A stretch of DNA of 49,790 nucleotides. It comes from Spirulina sp. SIO3F2 (lineage in GTDB: Bacteria > Cyanobacteriota > Cyanobacteriia > Cyanobacteriales > Spirulinaceae). The notes beneath the pieces are model-generated. The model was given only the letters and a program-made list of their open reading frames with translations. It made no database searches and had not been told where the DNA came from. Numbering within the stretch: position 1 is the stretch's first letter; every line of letters starts with the position of its first letter. Made by a program: the position numbers and the translations under genes. Positions 15,760-31,336 of the stretch are shown piece by piece. The stretch lies in assembly GCA_010672165.1 (NCBI GenBank), contig JAAHHN010000021.1, positions 1-49,790 of the forward strand, written 5' to 3'.

Positions 15760-18700
15760 TTATTGAGAGGCTTGTAAAGCCTCCGTGAGAGCTTCCCGGG
15801 CTGCCGAAAGGGCCTCAGGTAGTTGGCTGGCATCCCGGCCACCGGCTTGGGCAAGGTTCGGTCGCCCGCCACCGCCACCGCCACAACGTTTGGCAATCGC
15901 ACCAATAAACTGACCAGCCTTGAGACCTTTTGCTTTGATCACTTGGGGACTAAAGGCCGCCACCAGCGACACTTTACCTTCTGCTGGGGTAGAAGCCAGC
16001 ACCACCGCACTCTCCCCTAGCTTTTGTCCCAACCGTTCAGCAGCGGTTTGTAGCACTTTCGGGTCGAGATCGCCTAAGTTCGCCACCAGAACCTTAAAGT
16101 CACCCACGGTTTCTGCTTCGGCCAAAAGCTGATCGGATTTGGCTAATGCCAACTCATTTTTCGCAGCGTCTAGTGCTTTCTGGGTGGCTTTGAGTTCGGC
16201 TTGGAGCTTGGTGACCCGTTCGAGAATCTCTTCTGGTTGGGCTTTGAAGCGATCGCTTAAGTCCTTAACAATCCCATCGCGTACCTGGAGATAATCTAAA
16301 ATTGCCGGGCCAGCCACTGCTTCAATCCGGCGTACCCCCGAAGAAATCCCAGCCTCGGAGATAATTTTCACAGCTCCAATTTCCGCCGTATTGTGGACAT
16401 GGGTTCCTCCACACAGTTCCATCGAGACACCGGGGAAATCGATCACTCGCACCTCGTCACCGTATTTCTCGCCAAACATGGCGGTTGCCCCCTTTGCTTT
16501 AGCTTGGTCGATGGGCATCACTGCGATCTCAGCAAGGTGAGACTCGGCAACCCAAGTATTGATCTGGGCTTCCACCTGGGCGAGTTCTTCTGATGTCACC
16601 GCTCGGTTCAAGTTAAAGTCAAATCGGAAGCGATCAAACGCCACCAGCGAACCTGCTTGAGAGATACTTTCATCCACAATCAATTTCAAGGCAGCTTGCA
16701 ATAGGTGAGTAGCACTGTGGTTGGCTTGCACTCGACGGCGACAGGCGCGATCGATCGTGGCATTAACCATGCTTTCGGTCTGTAATGTGCCACGCTCCAC
16801 CTGGCCAGTATGGATAAAGACATTTCCTTCTTTTTGCACATCATCAATCTGCACAAGTAAGTCCTTACCCGAGAGATAACCGCGATCGCCAATTTGCCCA
16901 CCTGACTCGGCATAAAACGGCGTCTGCTCCAAAATAATTTGCACTGCTGAGCCAACTTCGGCTCGCTCCACAGGGGTACTTTCTACCAAAAGTGCTTTGA
17001 TCAAAGCGCGGGATTGAAGATCGGTGTAGCCTAGAAATTCTGTTGCTTCAAGGCTCTGGGCCAATTGCTCAATACTCTCTTGGGCCAGGAGGTCGATGCT
17101 TTTATGGGCTTTGCGAGCGCGATCACGCTGCTTTTCCATTTCAACTTCAAAACCTTCAACATCAACACTGATACCTTGTTCCGCAGCGATTTCCTGGGTG
17201 AGTTCTAGTGGAAAGCCATAAGTGTCATAGAGTGTAAAAGCATACGTGCCAAAAAGTGATGGTAAGTTTCCAGGAACAGTTTCAAATGGCTTTCGAGCAT
17301 CAACTGCTGCAAAAAACTCTGTATTTTTGACTAGGAAATCTTGTACAAATTGACTAGGTAACCACTTAGGGGCCTGTTTCAGCTCCTGAAGCATCGGCTT
17401 GAGAGATTCAGCTATCTTCAGTAACAGATCAGTTTTGCTGAGCAGATCACTAAGCTTTTTAACAGCATCTTGTAGGTCTTGACTAGCATTGACTACAGAT
17501 TCTTGTTTTTCTGCTACAACTCCTAACTTTTCCGAAAACAGAGCAGACTTCGATATTGCTTTGAATGCAGAGGGACTAGATCTTGCGCATAAATCTCCTA
17601 TCGCAGACGATAATTCTGAATTCTTTTCAAGCTCTTTTTGTAGGAGTGATGCACTTTGCTTGATGACTTGAAGCGCTATTCCTATACGTTCTTCACCTTT
17701 CACTAACGTCTTGAGGAACTGAGTCTCCTCCCGCTGCAATTCCGCCATAATCGCAGCTTCACGCTCACGCACAGTCGGAAAAGCCTGCTCAGAAAGTTGA
17801 ATGGCAGTTTCAGCCACTTGATTAATAAACTCGCCGTCAATCCCCAGCAGACGGCCATGACGCACCACGCGACGGATCAGACGACGGAGTACATAACCGC
17901 GATCGGTGTTAGAAGCAGTGATGCCATCAGCAATCATATGCACAACAGCCCGCACGTGATCCCCAATCACTTTCAATGAGACTTTTTGGGTCTGATCTGC
18001 TTTAGCGTAATCTACTGCTGCGAGCTTAGCCGCCGTTTCAATGATCGGCAGAATCAGATCAGTCTCATAGTTGTTAGGCACTTGCTGCAAAATTTGTGCC
18101 ATCCGCTCTAGACCTAAGCCTGTATCAATATTCTGCTTTTCGAGCGGCGTGAGATTCCCTTCAGCATCCCGGTTGTATTGCATAAACACCAGGTTGTAAT
18201 ACTCAATAAACCGAGAGTCATCTTCAAGGTCAATGGCTTTATCCCCCAGCTCTGGTTTGAAGTCATAGTAAATTTCTGAACAGGGACCACACGGGCCAGT
18301 AGGGCCAGACTTCCAAAAATTATCCGCTTCACCCATGCGCTGAATTCGATGCTCAGGAATGCCAATCACATCTCGCCAGATCGCAAAGGCCTCATCGTCA
18401 TCCCGGAAGACACTGGGAACCAAACGTTCAGGGGGTAAGCAAAAGACTTCTGTGGAGAGTTCCCAAGCCCATTGAATGGCTTGTTGCTTAAAATAGTCGC
18501 CAAAACTAAAATTCCCCAGCATCTCAAAGAAGGTGTGGTGCCGAGCCGTGCGACCCACATTTTCAATATCGTTAGTGCGGATACATTTTTGGGAGGTGGT
18601 GGCGCGATCGCAGGGGGCAGGCTGTTGACCCAAAAAAATCGGCTTAAAGGGTAGCATTCCCGCGATCGTCAGGAGCACTGTGGGATCTTCTGGCACTAGC

Positions 18701-18798
18701 GAGGCACTCGGTAAAATTTTATGCTGCTTGCTAGCGTAGAACTGGAGAAACTTCTCGCGGATTTCGCTACCCGTTAGTGATTGGGGGGTCTTGGCCAT
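15760..18798 (-). CDS. alaS: Alanyl-tRNA synthetase with a large internal insertion
   Basis: From ATG 18798 this is 1012 residues, versus about 875-880 in other cyanobacteria. The class II catalytic core is intact: [21 protein letters not shown], then DTGLGLERM near residue 230. The editing domain has the zinc residues H694 and H698 (NHSATHLLQ), and C796 and H800 (CGGTH). The C-Ala domain ends with the [15 protein letters not shown] motif. The excess length is one block at about residues 376-515, just before the conserved [20 protein letters not shown] start 12 codons upstream (18834) is possible; I prefer [18 protein letters not shown] because family alignment begins there. Confidence 0.96.
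17256..17675 (-). other. In-frame ~135-residue insertion inside alaS
   Basis: Residues ~376-515 of AlaRS have no counterpart in the usual enzyme, where about 20 residues join GEE to the YDTYGFP motif. The insert is rich in Lys, Glu, Ser and Leu, with heptad-like stretches such as [21 protein letters not shown], suggesting a helical or coiled-coil module. Hand-counted GC over 17281-17640 is ~40%, against ~53-55% in sample flanks, and the block lacks HIP1 sites. It has no intein or transposon hallmarks. Confidence 0.85.
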
Positions 18799-19117
18799 CG
18801 GTAATTCTTTAGGTGTGCCTTCACATAAGGTCATTTTTCACACCCGACTATTGTGACATTAAACCCGCAGGCATTGCGCTCAGTTCCACATCTGCCTTAT
18901 CTGAGGTCACCGCAAACCCACGGTAAGACACTTGGAAAAGTGATAGCAGCATCGTTGTTACGAGCCAAAATCTGAGAACCCAGACCATTGAGACGATCGC
19001 GGCAGCATGCGTCAGTCAAAAACCCCAGACAACCTCGCCCGCAACATTCGCCATCACATTATTAGATAAAAACAAAGTGACCTACTACTACAAAGATTCT
19101 GAGTTCAAAAAGTGGGT
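18799..19117. other. Spacer upstream of alaS
   Basis: About 320 bases between the alaS start and the end of the receiver-cyclase gene. It must hold the alaS promoter. I see no gene, strong hairpin or repeat in it. Confidence 0.5.
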
Positions 19118-28414: not shown

Positions 28415-31336
28415 TCACTCCGCCAACACCTCCACCACACCGCGATCGCCATCCAAACGCACCCGCTGCCCCGCCCGCAAATAGCCCAACGCCCCCGCCA
28501 CATCAAACACCGCCGGAATTCCATATTCCCGCGCTACGATCGCCCCGTGAGAAAGCCGCCCACCGGCCTCCGCAATAATGCCCCCCACCTGCACCAACAA
28601 CGGCGACCAACCTGCATCTGTGTAAGGCACAACCAGAATTGTGTCAGCCGTTAACGGCGGAATCGTCTGCAACGACTGAAGCGGTTGAATCACCCCCTCA
28701 ATCACCCCCGGACTCACCGCAATCCCCCGCAACGTTTGAGCCTTCTCCAAGGTTGGCAAAATCGGCGCATCCCCTTGGGGCTGGCCGTAGACCACTGGCG
28801 GCACACTGACCAAGTCAACATCTTTGGCATAGCGCTGACGACGCTGATCAATCTGGGCTTGGATAGAGGCGATCGCCTCGACAGGCCAGGGTTGGGGCAA
28901 ATCCGGATCATGGGCTGCAAGGCGATCGCTAATTTCCGGCCAGGTCAAGAAAAAGATATCCCCCGACGTTGGCAAATATCCCGCCTCCTGCCAGCGGCTC
29001 TCCAGATGCCGAAACGTCCAGCGCAAATGAGCCAAAAAGCGATTATAAATCTCTGCTATACGTCCCTTCAGCACCAAGCGGGGCTGTAACCAACGGGCAG
29101 CCCAAGAAGTGGGAATTTCATGGTGCTCCACCGTTTGCCACAACTGTGCCCGTTGTCCATCACTAAAGATGCATTGACTAAACAGCTCTCGCATTGGTCG
29201 GGGATCATCCAACCAGCGCGGCACAGCAATATCGGTGGCTACTTCACTCAAGTAGCCATAGGTTCCGAGCCATTGGTTAAATCGATCCAAAATACAGCCG
29301 CCATCCGGGGTCTCTGCTAGATAAGCAAACAGAGACGGACAACTGTCAAACTCCAGTTCGGGCAAAGGCAATAAGTTACGGCTTTTCTCAGCGAGTTCCA
29401 GGAGCGATCGCAGAGCCGCCACCTCCGGCAAAACGTGAGTATCCAACTCAGCATCAGTGACTTTTAAAATGGCTTGACGCAGCGCCACACTCAGGGGTGC
29501 CAGAATTTGGTACGCTGTCACCCGCCGCAAGTTTAGTAAAATCCGCTCAATCCGCATCGCTAATTCTGGCTCAGAAAGCGAATCGATAGGAGCTGCCAAC
29601 TCATTGAGCAACGGCTCAAACCAGCGGCGCTCATCCTGGGCAAACTGCTGTGGTAACCGCCACTCCTGCTTCAGCAACGCCAACAGCCCTGGCAAGTTGC
29701 GCAAAGTTGAGCCAACCGACGGACGGGATAACTTCGCCCCCCGCGTTAGCCATTCCAGGCTCTCGGGCGGCAGCCCCATCTGCTGGAAAATCTGGCTAAT
29801 CAGGCTGGCATTGAAATAGGCATGGGAAAAATGCAGAGTGGCAGTAGCTGCAAAGTCCAACCCCTGCGATCGCCGCTCTCCCAACACCATGGTGAACAAT
29901 TCCCCCCAAACCCCGCAGGTCAGAGGCTGATTAATTGACCAAGTCAAGGGACGAATCACCCCTGGAATCACCTCAGCTGCAATCTTCCGACTCCAGATCG
30001 GTGTTAGGGTCGTGATCGGTCGCGCCTGAAGCAACCAAAGTGTTTCACCATCATGACACCATTCAATATCTTGGGGAATGCCATGATAGCGCCCTTCTAA
30101 CTCTCGTGCTAAACGGGCAACGGCGTAGAGAATATCTGGGGGGACGACACCCTCTCCCTCCAGGGTAGATGTTTCAGCGTCTGGATTATAGACAGCGTAG
30201 CGCTCGGGGGTGATTTGACCGCCAACGACCTGTCCAGGAGTGCCTGCGATCGCCTCGATTGTCACACCCTGACGATATTGTTCCAACGGGTCACGGCTAA
30301 AGGCAACCCCCGCATATTGGCTGGCTACCTGGGTTTGGATAATGACCGCGAGGGGGCGATCGGGCTGGCCATAACGCTCACGATATTGTGCTGCTTGGGG
30401 ACGATGGTAGGCTTGCTGGCAGCGCACGATCGCCGCTTCTAGTTCAGCTGTTGAAGTAACATCCCCTACCGATAAATATTGCCCTGCCGCTGATGCGGTC
30501 AGACCATCTTCCCCAATGGCTGAAGAGCGTACGATTAGGGGACGCTCTGGTGTCGGTGTTACCGAGCGCAGCGCTGCACTCAGATCATCCCCTGCCAGAA
30601 GCACCCAACCATCCGGAACGCTGTAGCCCCACTGTTTGAGTTGGGAGAGCGTGGCGGCTTTATTGCCGACTTTCTGCGCATCCAAGGGTTCGCCCAAGCT
30701 CAGCAGTCCTTGATCACTACGGAAGAACCGAAACATGGCCCGCGATCGCAGACCACTGGTTGTTGTGGGCGTCGGCAAGTCCAAATCATCGGGGATAGTT
30801 TGTAAGATCCACGCCAGGACGCTCCCCAAAATCAACGCCATCACCCCATAGTTAGCGTCTTCGAAGCGATGCAGTGCCAGCAGCACTACCATCACGCCTA
30901 AGCCCACCAGCCGACCCGTCCGTCGCTCCCGAAACAGGGTCAGGCTTACACCCCCCATCACCAGGATCGCTACGGCGACCATAAAGTCATGCCACACCAA
31001 CCCCCAAAACACATTGGTGATACCGGCCCCTTTGCCCAGCCAATAGCGCCCCATTACCAGCGTGATCAGCGCGACCAATTCCCACACGGGTTCACTGGGG
31101 AAAAAATATCGTGCTATGCCCACAGCGGCTAGACCCTTAGCTGCCTCCGAGAGTACCGCTAAAATCCCAATCACGGTGCCAGCATGGTAGAAGGCCGCCG
31201 AAACCGAGATATTTCCCGTGCCCAAGTTGCGCAGAGATTGGCCCGTTCCCAATCGCACTAACCCATCCACTAAGGGCAGACCACCGAGAATTGGCAACAG
31301 ACAAAAGACGGCAAGGCAGCCCCAGATTGTGTTCAT
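28415..31336 (-). CDS. PlsY-like membrane domain fused to an Rph/PEP-synthase-like phosphotransferase
   Basis: A 973-residue fusion. Residues 1-180 are a polytopic membrane domain resembling PlsY acyltransferase. It has LRNLGTGNISVSAAFYHAG where PlsY has its GSGNxGATN motif, but the GHxxPxF part of the third motif is not recognisable (MGRYWLGKGAG). Residues ~205-450 are a PPDK-type ATP-grasp domain (VGNKAATLSQL, LIVRSSAIGEDG, WLLQARPI). A ~400-residue middle region follows, then a phosphohistidine swivel domain with GGRLSHGAIVARE (His930). There is no PEP/pyruvate barrel. The order ATP-grasp, middle, His domain is that of rifampin phosphotransferase, so a membrane-linked phosphotransferase is inferred; the substrate is unknown. 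Confidence 0.88.
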   Translation of the reverse strand: MNTIWGCLAVFCLLPILGGLPLVDGLVRLGTGQSLRNLGTGNISVSAAFYHAGTVIGILAVLSEAAKGLAAVGIARYFFPSEPVWELVALITLVMGRYWLGKGAGITNVFWGLVWHDFMVAVAILVMGGVSLTLFRERRTGRLVGLGVMVVLLALHRFEDANYGVMALILGSVLAWILQTIPDDLDLPTPTTTSGLRSRAMFRFFRSDQGLLSLGEPLDAQKVGNKAATLSQLKQWGYSVPDGWVLLAGDDLSAALRSVTPTPERPLIVRSSAIGEDGLTASAAGQYLSVGDVTSTAELEAAIVRCQQAYHRPQAAQYRERYGQPDRPLAVIIQTQVASQYAGVAFSRDPLEQYRQGVTIEAIAGTPGQVVGGQITPERYAVYNPDAETSTLEGEGVVPPDILYAVARLARELEGRYHGIPQDIEWCHDGETLWLLQARPITTLTPIWSRKIAAEVIPGVIRPLTWSINQPLTCGVWGELFTMVLGERRSQGLDFAATATLHFSHAYFNASLISQIFQQMGLPPESLEWLTRGAKLSRPSVGSTLRNLPGLLALLKQEWRLPQQFAQDERRWFEPLLNELAAPIDSLSEPELAMRIERILLNLRRVTAYQILAPLSVALRQAILKVTDAELDTHVLPEVAALRSLLELAEKSRNLLPLPELEFDSCPSLFAYLAETPDGGCILDRFNQWLGTYGYLSEVATDIAVPRWLDDPRPMRELFSQCIFSDGQRAQLWQTVEHHEIPTSWAARWLQPRLVLKGRIAEIYNRFLAHLRWTFRHLESRWQEAGYLPTSGDIFFLTWPEISDRLAAHDPDLPQPWPVEAIASIQAQIDQRRQRYAKDVDLVSVPPVVYGQPQGDAPILPTLEKAQTLRGIAVSPGVIEGVIQPLQSLQTIPPLTADTILVVPYTDAGWSPLLVQVGGIIAEAGGRLSHGAIVAREYGIPAVFDVAGALGYLRAGQRVRLDGDRGVVEVLAE

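Follow-up and report, generated by a model that had tools for sequence, protein, structure and literature searches.

A 135-residue insert with a helical pattern at a length-variable loop of the alanyl-tRNA synthetase of Spirulina sp. SIO3F2

The alaS locus and its product

The window analysed here, that is, the whole stretch of 49,790 nucleotides from contig JAAHHN010000021.1 of the cyanobacterium Spirulina sp. SIO3F2 (assembly GCA_010672165.1), carries a gene for alanyl-tRNA synthetase (AlaRS) interrupted in frame by an unusual block (Table 1). The open reading frame encodes 1024 amino acids from the first ATG; with MAKTPQ (residue 13) as the start, for which position 18798 is the likely start codon, the product has 1012 residues, the length given in the original prediction. 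The protein scores 1033.9 bits against TIGR00344 (alaS), well above the curated cut-off of 457.05, and matches the Pfam family ‘tRNA synthetases class II (A)’, which identifies the host as a class II enzyme; in the Pfam search, the best PF01411 stretch covers residues 24–400. The tRNA_SAD and DHHA1 scores place the product among proteins with an editing and a DHHA1 domain, and H694, H698, C796 and H800 (numbered from MAKTPQ), which we take to be the metal ligands of the editing site, do not vary among 41 aligned AlaRS sequences. The sequence can be aligned to bacterial AlaRS (TIGR00344; solved N-terminal parts 1riq and 3hxu) on both flanks of the insert: residues 19–389 and 526–581 correspond to residues 2–369 and 378–432 of the Aquifex chain (1riq), with 136 residues between the two aligned pieces here versus 8 in Aquifex. 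Thus, the domains on either side of the insert are intact, with profile scores far above their cut-offs, as had been predicted for the catalytic and editing centres, and the host protein is an otherwise ordinary bacterial AlaRS. Among 40 aligned loci, its closest counterparts are those of two Spirulina MAGs (77% identity).

The same genome also encodes a second, AlaRS-like protein of 489 amino acids (contig C85, L197 969–2438), for which PF01411 is the sole Pfam match at E up to 1e-5; a 492-amino-acid frame with a similar match is found in one of the other genomes (G021).

Table 1. Features of the alaS gene, in window coordinates
Feature	Position	Strand	Basis
alaS, alanyl-tRNA synthetase	15760..18834	-	TIGR00344; Pfam tRNA-synt_2c, tRNA_SAD, DHHA1; ORF
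Catalytic and tRNA-recognition part, residues 24–391, N-terminal to the insert	17662..18765	-	PF01411; 1riq alignment
Insert, residues 392–526, 135 aa, amphipathic-helical by pattern, low GC	17257..17661	-	
Tyr-Asp-Thr-Tyr-Gly motif, residues 536–540	17215..17229	-	Sequence; role from the excerpted text of PMC6451123
Part of the editing domain (tRNA_SAD), residues 795–838	16321..16452	-	PF07973, 61.3 bits
C-terminal DHHA1 domain, residues 914–1017	15784..16095	-	PF02272, 71.4 bits

Extent, composition and integrity of the insert

The block without a counterpart in the relatives stands in for a short loop of the enzyme. The original prediction had located it at 17256–17675; the block is real, and its boundaries are displaced by a few codons (Table 1). 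The YDTYG motif is present and begins ten residues past the last insert residue. In an archaeal AlaRS–tRNA structure, the equivalent peptide touches the G3-U70 base pair via its Tyr and Asp, according to the excerpted text of PMC6451123. The insertion site would be flanked by the TLxRGEKLL segment, the probable end of the tRNA-recognition helices, and by the strand that carries YDTYG.

The low GC content noticed at the outset holds for the insert itself (40.0%), whereas the value of about 54% quoted for the rest of the gene was too high, the measured figure being 50.8%; at third codon positions, the difference is 28.9% versus 49.4%. Among 699 coding blocks of the same length drawn from the 21 other open reading frames of the window, every one has a higher codon-usage score than the insert, 2.7% have a GC content as low and 1.6% a GC3 as low, figures that represent ranks rather than probabilities because the blocks overlap and were all taken from automatically listed reading frames of a single window. 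The plain GC content of the insert is only mildly unusual. Furthermore, four of five other inserts found at the same loop (those of G647, G035, G152 and Anabaena azotica) are also GC-poor relative to their own frames, the repeat-type insert of L084 being richer, so that low GC is no proof of a foreign or recent origin.

The insert DNA is single-copy in its own assembly, apart from one extra match of 22 bases (E 0.45), and the insert protein yields one match in its own genome at E up to 1; an interspersed repeat lodged in a coding gene was therefore rejected, further copies being absent from this genome. The open frame spans all 135 codons, whereas the other five frames carry 3 to 12 stops. The net charge is +1 and the highest 19-residue Kyte-Doolittle mean is 0.81. 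The assembly is a draft of 453 contigs with an estimated contamination of 2.84%, which, together with the low GC and unusual codons of the insert, could be taken to mean that foreign DNA was erroneously joined into alaS. However, such an artefact would require two in-frame joins within one gene with almost no loss of AlaRS sequence, and the single-copy state, the open frame and the restriction of the helical pattern to that frame (see below) all argue against it. We regard an assembly error as highly improbable, and the insert is confirmed as real.

Homologues and distribution of the insert

Searches with the insert gave no convincing homologue in the relatives set (39 genomes), in the order set (388 genomes; at most nine candidates scored per genome, such that a relative could be missed) or in the class set (388 genomes, partly overlapping with the order set; again at most nine candidates per genome). 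Six short exact peptide patterns, which can reach close relatives only, gave no convincing relative in genome_contigs and viral_contigs, and plasmids and phages gave no tblastn match at E 0.01. The best matches among PDB sequences (E 0.21), Pfam (SctB2, E 0.013, under its cut-off), NCBIfam (E 0.013, under cut-off) and PHROGs (E 0.0044) were equally unconvincing, in agreement with the original prediction that no described domain matches this block, and no insert at this AlaRS loop is described in the titles and abstract openings of the open-access papers listed.

Weak matches at E ≤ 0.01 outside the genome itself were present in 10 of the 388 order genomes and 5 of the 388 class genomes (13 distinct genomes), the best being those of G028 (E 4.7e-4) and G195 (E 5.1e-4). 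Nine of them (G028, G031, G090, G127, G195, G245, G318, G454 and G709) are located away from the AlaRS of the respective genome; judging by its sequence, that of G454 probably belongs to a separate coiled-coil/TPR-like protein, that of G709 has a stop inside the matching frame, and the stretch around the G028 match contains no complete reading frame of at least 600 amino acids. The remaining weak matches were judged on score alone. Hence, the database search called for in the original prediction produced no convincing homologue, the same insert was not found in other AlaRS, and, as far as the sensitivity of these searches goes, the insert stands without relatives in the collections covered.

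Each of the 39 genomes in the relatives set has AlaRS itself. In 36 of the 38 relatives, hand-read coordinates place the two aligned AlaRS pieces at most 33 nt apart or in slight overlap, and the other two (G016 and G035) have other inserts. The insert is absent from all 12 other family genomes examined (G001–G012) and, as its predicted restriction would have it, was seen in this genome only, among the collections searched. The genus is represented by this genome alone, so that lineage-specific cannot be separated from strain-specific and constraint on the insert is not measurable.

A loop of variable length in cyanobacterial AlaRS

The linker between E[ED]xxFxxTL and YDTYGFP comprises 158 residues in the AlaRS described here. 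Among the 28 measurable loci from this genome and 29 relatives (L029 and L042 having been dropped from the 30 before counting), it is 26 or 30 residues long in 25; the remaining three have 64, 110 and 158 residues, the last being our own. A similar picture emerges from 80 named loci, some of whose genomes may overlap with the order survey: with L120, L144 and L147 dropped as not measurable, 68 of 77 have linkers of 26–32 residues and nine have 45–120. In the order survey, a loop-spanning probe taken from the best-scoring relative (G002) matched 370 of 388 genomes, 28 of them in more than one piece. Linkers of 45–158 residues account for 22 of these, including our own, two are normal (G253 and G333) and four were dropped because the linker was not measurable (G191, G192, G236 and G368). 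In the 21 other genomes, the linker thus measures 45 to 120 residues instead of the usual 26–30; this count of genomes is a lower bound, since G310 and G345 have the longer linker type yet matched in one piece.

In the class survey (388 genomes, some of them also in the order survey), 13 genomes matched in several pieces. Nine of these were new, and among the nine a single large loop insert was found, the 120-residue linker of G647, a member of another order. G647 and G607 were opened, whereas G400, G419, G455, G520, G567, G656 and G713 were judged from coordinates only; their multiple pieces were put down to broken frames, contig breaks or genes lying apart. Grouped by kinship label, the genomes with linkers of at least 45 residues fall into nine families (f1, f2, f5, f14, f15, f20, f24, f33 and f48), and none of the other inserts measured at this loop is as long as the one described here. 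The proposed survey of AlaRS length across cyanobacteria has thereby revealed a loop of about 26 to 158 residues in the genomes examined and, with it, a recurrent site of gain that the original prediction had missed. Given that the loop repeatedly gains length in cyanobacterial AlaRS, an insert at this position need not be functional.

The sequences that fill the loop are diverse. Tandem repeats are found in G151 (four TDGFA-type units), in G362 (PKVSGLPEQ-type units) and, as GGQDAHPTVEISES-type units, in an Oscillatoriales MAG (L084, six) and in Tychonema bourrellyi (L143, four); the insert DNA of G132 has partial copies elsewhere, four in G132 and seven in G192 (E ≤ 0.001). The blocks of G035, G152 and G647 are helix-like by composition, not by predicted structure. 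These three, the Tychonema/Oscillatoriales type and the g59 type share with the present insert the position, the preserved frame and the patchy occurrence. The present insert differs in being single-copy and not low-complexity, whereas many of the others are tandem repeats or have partial copies elsewhere. When it was aligned to four of them, 352 (G647), 442 (G035), 39 (G152) and 141 (G264) of 500 shuffles scored as high, which indicates that the compared inserts are unrelated to it. On this sequence evidence, the loop appears to be insertion-permissive, several cyanobacterial lineages having probably filled it with unrelated sequence. This permissive loop is the broader finding, and the uniqueness of the insert is partly deflated by it.

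As to origin, a scenario compatible with this picture is that the loop expanded by internal tandem duplication and then diverged, rather than capturing sequence from elsewhere. Tandem expansion is visible at the loop in G035, G151, G362 and the GGQDAHPT-type inserts, and the insert retains a weak self-similarity that is reached by 10 of 200 shuffles; however, this similarity is marginal and displays no clear period, and we hold the scenario to be a tentative possibility.

Several other peculiarities were encountered around this gene. In G647 (L199 805–3822), a second YDTYGFP-like stretch (FDTHGFP) follows the first after 40 residues within one open frame of 1005 amino acids. The alaS loop of G192 (L060) holds a long repeat array in which the reading frame is broken; the interruption may be genuine or may reflect a sequencing error. 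Three loci of family f46 (L190, L192 and L193, from G455, G419 and G400) contain, a few kb from alaS on the same contig, a 459-residue frame with weak similarity to the terminal part of the AlaRS probe, and G333 (L081/L083) has an AlaRS insertion of about 70 residues elsewhere, downstream of YDTYGFP.

Helical pattern and structure prediction

Residues 392–526 have a mean helical hydrophobic moment above that of all 500 composition shuffles (z 4.1), whereas for translations of this DNA in the five other frames, with stops removed, the observed value is reached by 36 to 419 of 500 shuffles. For comparison, the moments of two AlaRS stretches used as helical references are reached by 32 and 21 of 500 shuffles. 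The signal is unevenly spread, with 14, 0 and 171 of 500 shuffles reaching the moments of residues 392–450, 430–490 and 480–526, respectively, so that the last part of the insert is without it. The predicted helical character is thus borne out as an amphipathic-helix pattern in the coding frame and in none of the other five. Among the helix-like inserts of other genomes, the moment is reached by none of 500 shuffles for G152, 7 for G035 and 49 for G647, for which amphipathicity is consequently not clear; the values for three repeat-type inserts are 101, 256 and 486.

Structure modelling, suggested as a check in the original prediction, agrees in part: AlphaFold draws mostly helices for the insert alone, but with low confidence (mean pLDDT 50.5). 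In the model of the full protein, the block means over the insert are about 25–47, the overall mean is 65.0, the pTM is 0.33 and the catalytic core falls partly below 50. Given this low confidence in both settings, the fold is not established and helicity rests on the pattern. The insert looks protein-like, and the strength of its amphipathicity suggests present or past selection at the protein level, which is less easily reconciled with pure tolerance.

A tolerated appendage or a docking module

Few enzymes are as conserved as the aminoacyl-tRNA synthetases, and a single base pair is the main feature by which AlaRS recognizes its tRNA. We consider it most probable (roughly 0.66) that a normal AlaRS here tolerates the insert as a helical appendage, at a loop that is permissive to insertions. 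Under this interpretation, an ordinary AlaRS would have gained in frame a 135-residue amphipathic α-helical segment, presumably from a coding source and after the split from the sister genera. The segment would most likely form a helical bundle or a long coil projecting from the recognition domain, and in the simplest mechanism it leaves and re-enters at the loop without altering the core enzyme, such that catalysis, G3-U70 reading and editing would proceed as usual and the insert would be dispensable for charging. That unrelated inserts are tolerated just upstream of YDTYG suggests that the loop faces away from the tRNA.

If the insert is functional, protein–protein docking or oligomerization is possibly its likeliest role. 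A module of this kind could have been selected for joining AlaRS, within a complex, to the ribosome, to a second synthetase or to a protein of tRNA processing, and the amphipathic helicity confined to the coding frame, as well as a composition that, unlike many inserts at the loop, is not low-complexity, would be in line with such a role. Its plausibility is also raised by CAAD (PF14159), which, according to the excerpted text of PMC4893482, is a patchily distributed module inside cyanobacterial synthetases, much as the insert is. The genome of strain SIO3F2 has three CAAD matches, in a 142-residue frame, an 1181-residue protein (L200 535–4080) and a 799-residue protein (L201 382–2781), the latter two of which we read as ValRS and ArgRS, respectively; the presence of CAAD inside these putative synthetases implies that the lineage does append modules to such enzymes. 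However, no homologue that would point to a shared partner was found in the collections searched, and the finding that several families carry unrelated inserts at this position favours a permissive site. On balance, a functional docking or oligomerization module, the main alternative to tolerance, appears unlikely. More improbable still is the specific version in which the insert is a docking domain new to science and particular to synthetases, recruiting AlaRS to a complex in a lineage whose ValRS and ArgRS already have CAAD anchors. If docking were nevertheless its role, the loop preceding the G3-U70 reader would be a port into which cyanobacteria plug modules.

Membrane localization, raised in the original prediction alongside tRNA binding and oligomerization, was not supported. 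CAAD itself would be the obvious candidate for such an anchor, as a known appended domain of cyanobacterial synthetases (excerpted text of PMC4893482) that is present in this very genome. Yet PF14159 is absent among the Pfam matches of both the whole protein and the insert at E up to 1, alignments of the insert to the three CAADs of its own genome are no better than those of shuffled sequences (241, 176 and 439 of 500), and the highest 19-residue hydropathy of 0.81 leaves the insert without a hydrophobic span, as opposed to the two transmembrane helices of a CAAD. In addition, the synthetases that carry CAAD are class I and monomeric, a common feature reported in the excerpted text of PMC4893482 rather than a definition, whereas the host here is class II. 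Profile, alignment and hydropathy all contradict a membrane anchor of the CAAD type, which we rejected as extremely unlikely.

A loop varying from about 26 to 158 residues in the cyanobacteria examined, directly before the G3-U70 reader, shows where an essential enzyme can accept new sequence, and it makes the origin of appended synthetase domains testable by deletion and swap.

Elsewhere in the window, a 973-amino-acid open reading frame (28415–31336) contains PPDK_N and PEP-utilizers domains together with PF02660, a glycerol-3-phosphate acyltransferase domain, which is an unusual combination.
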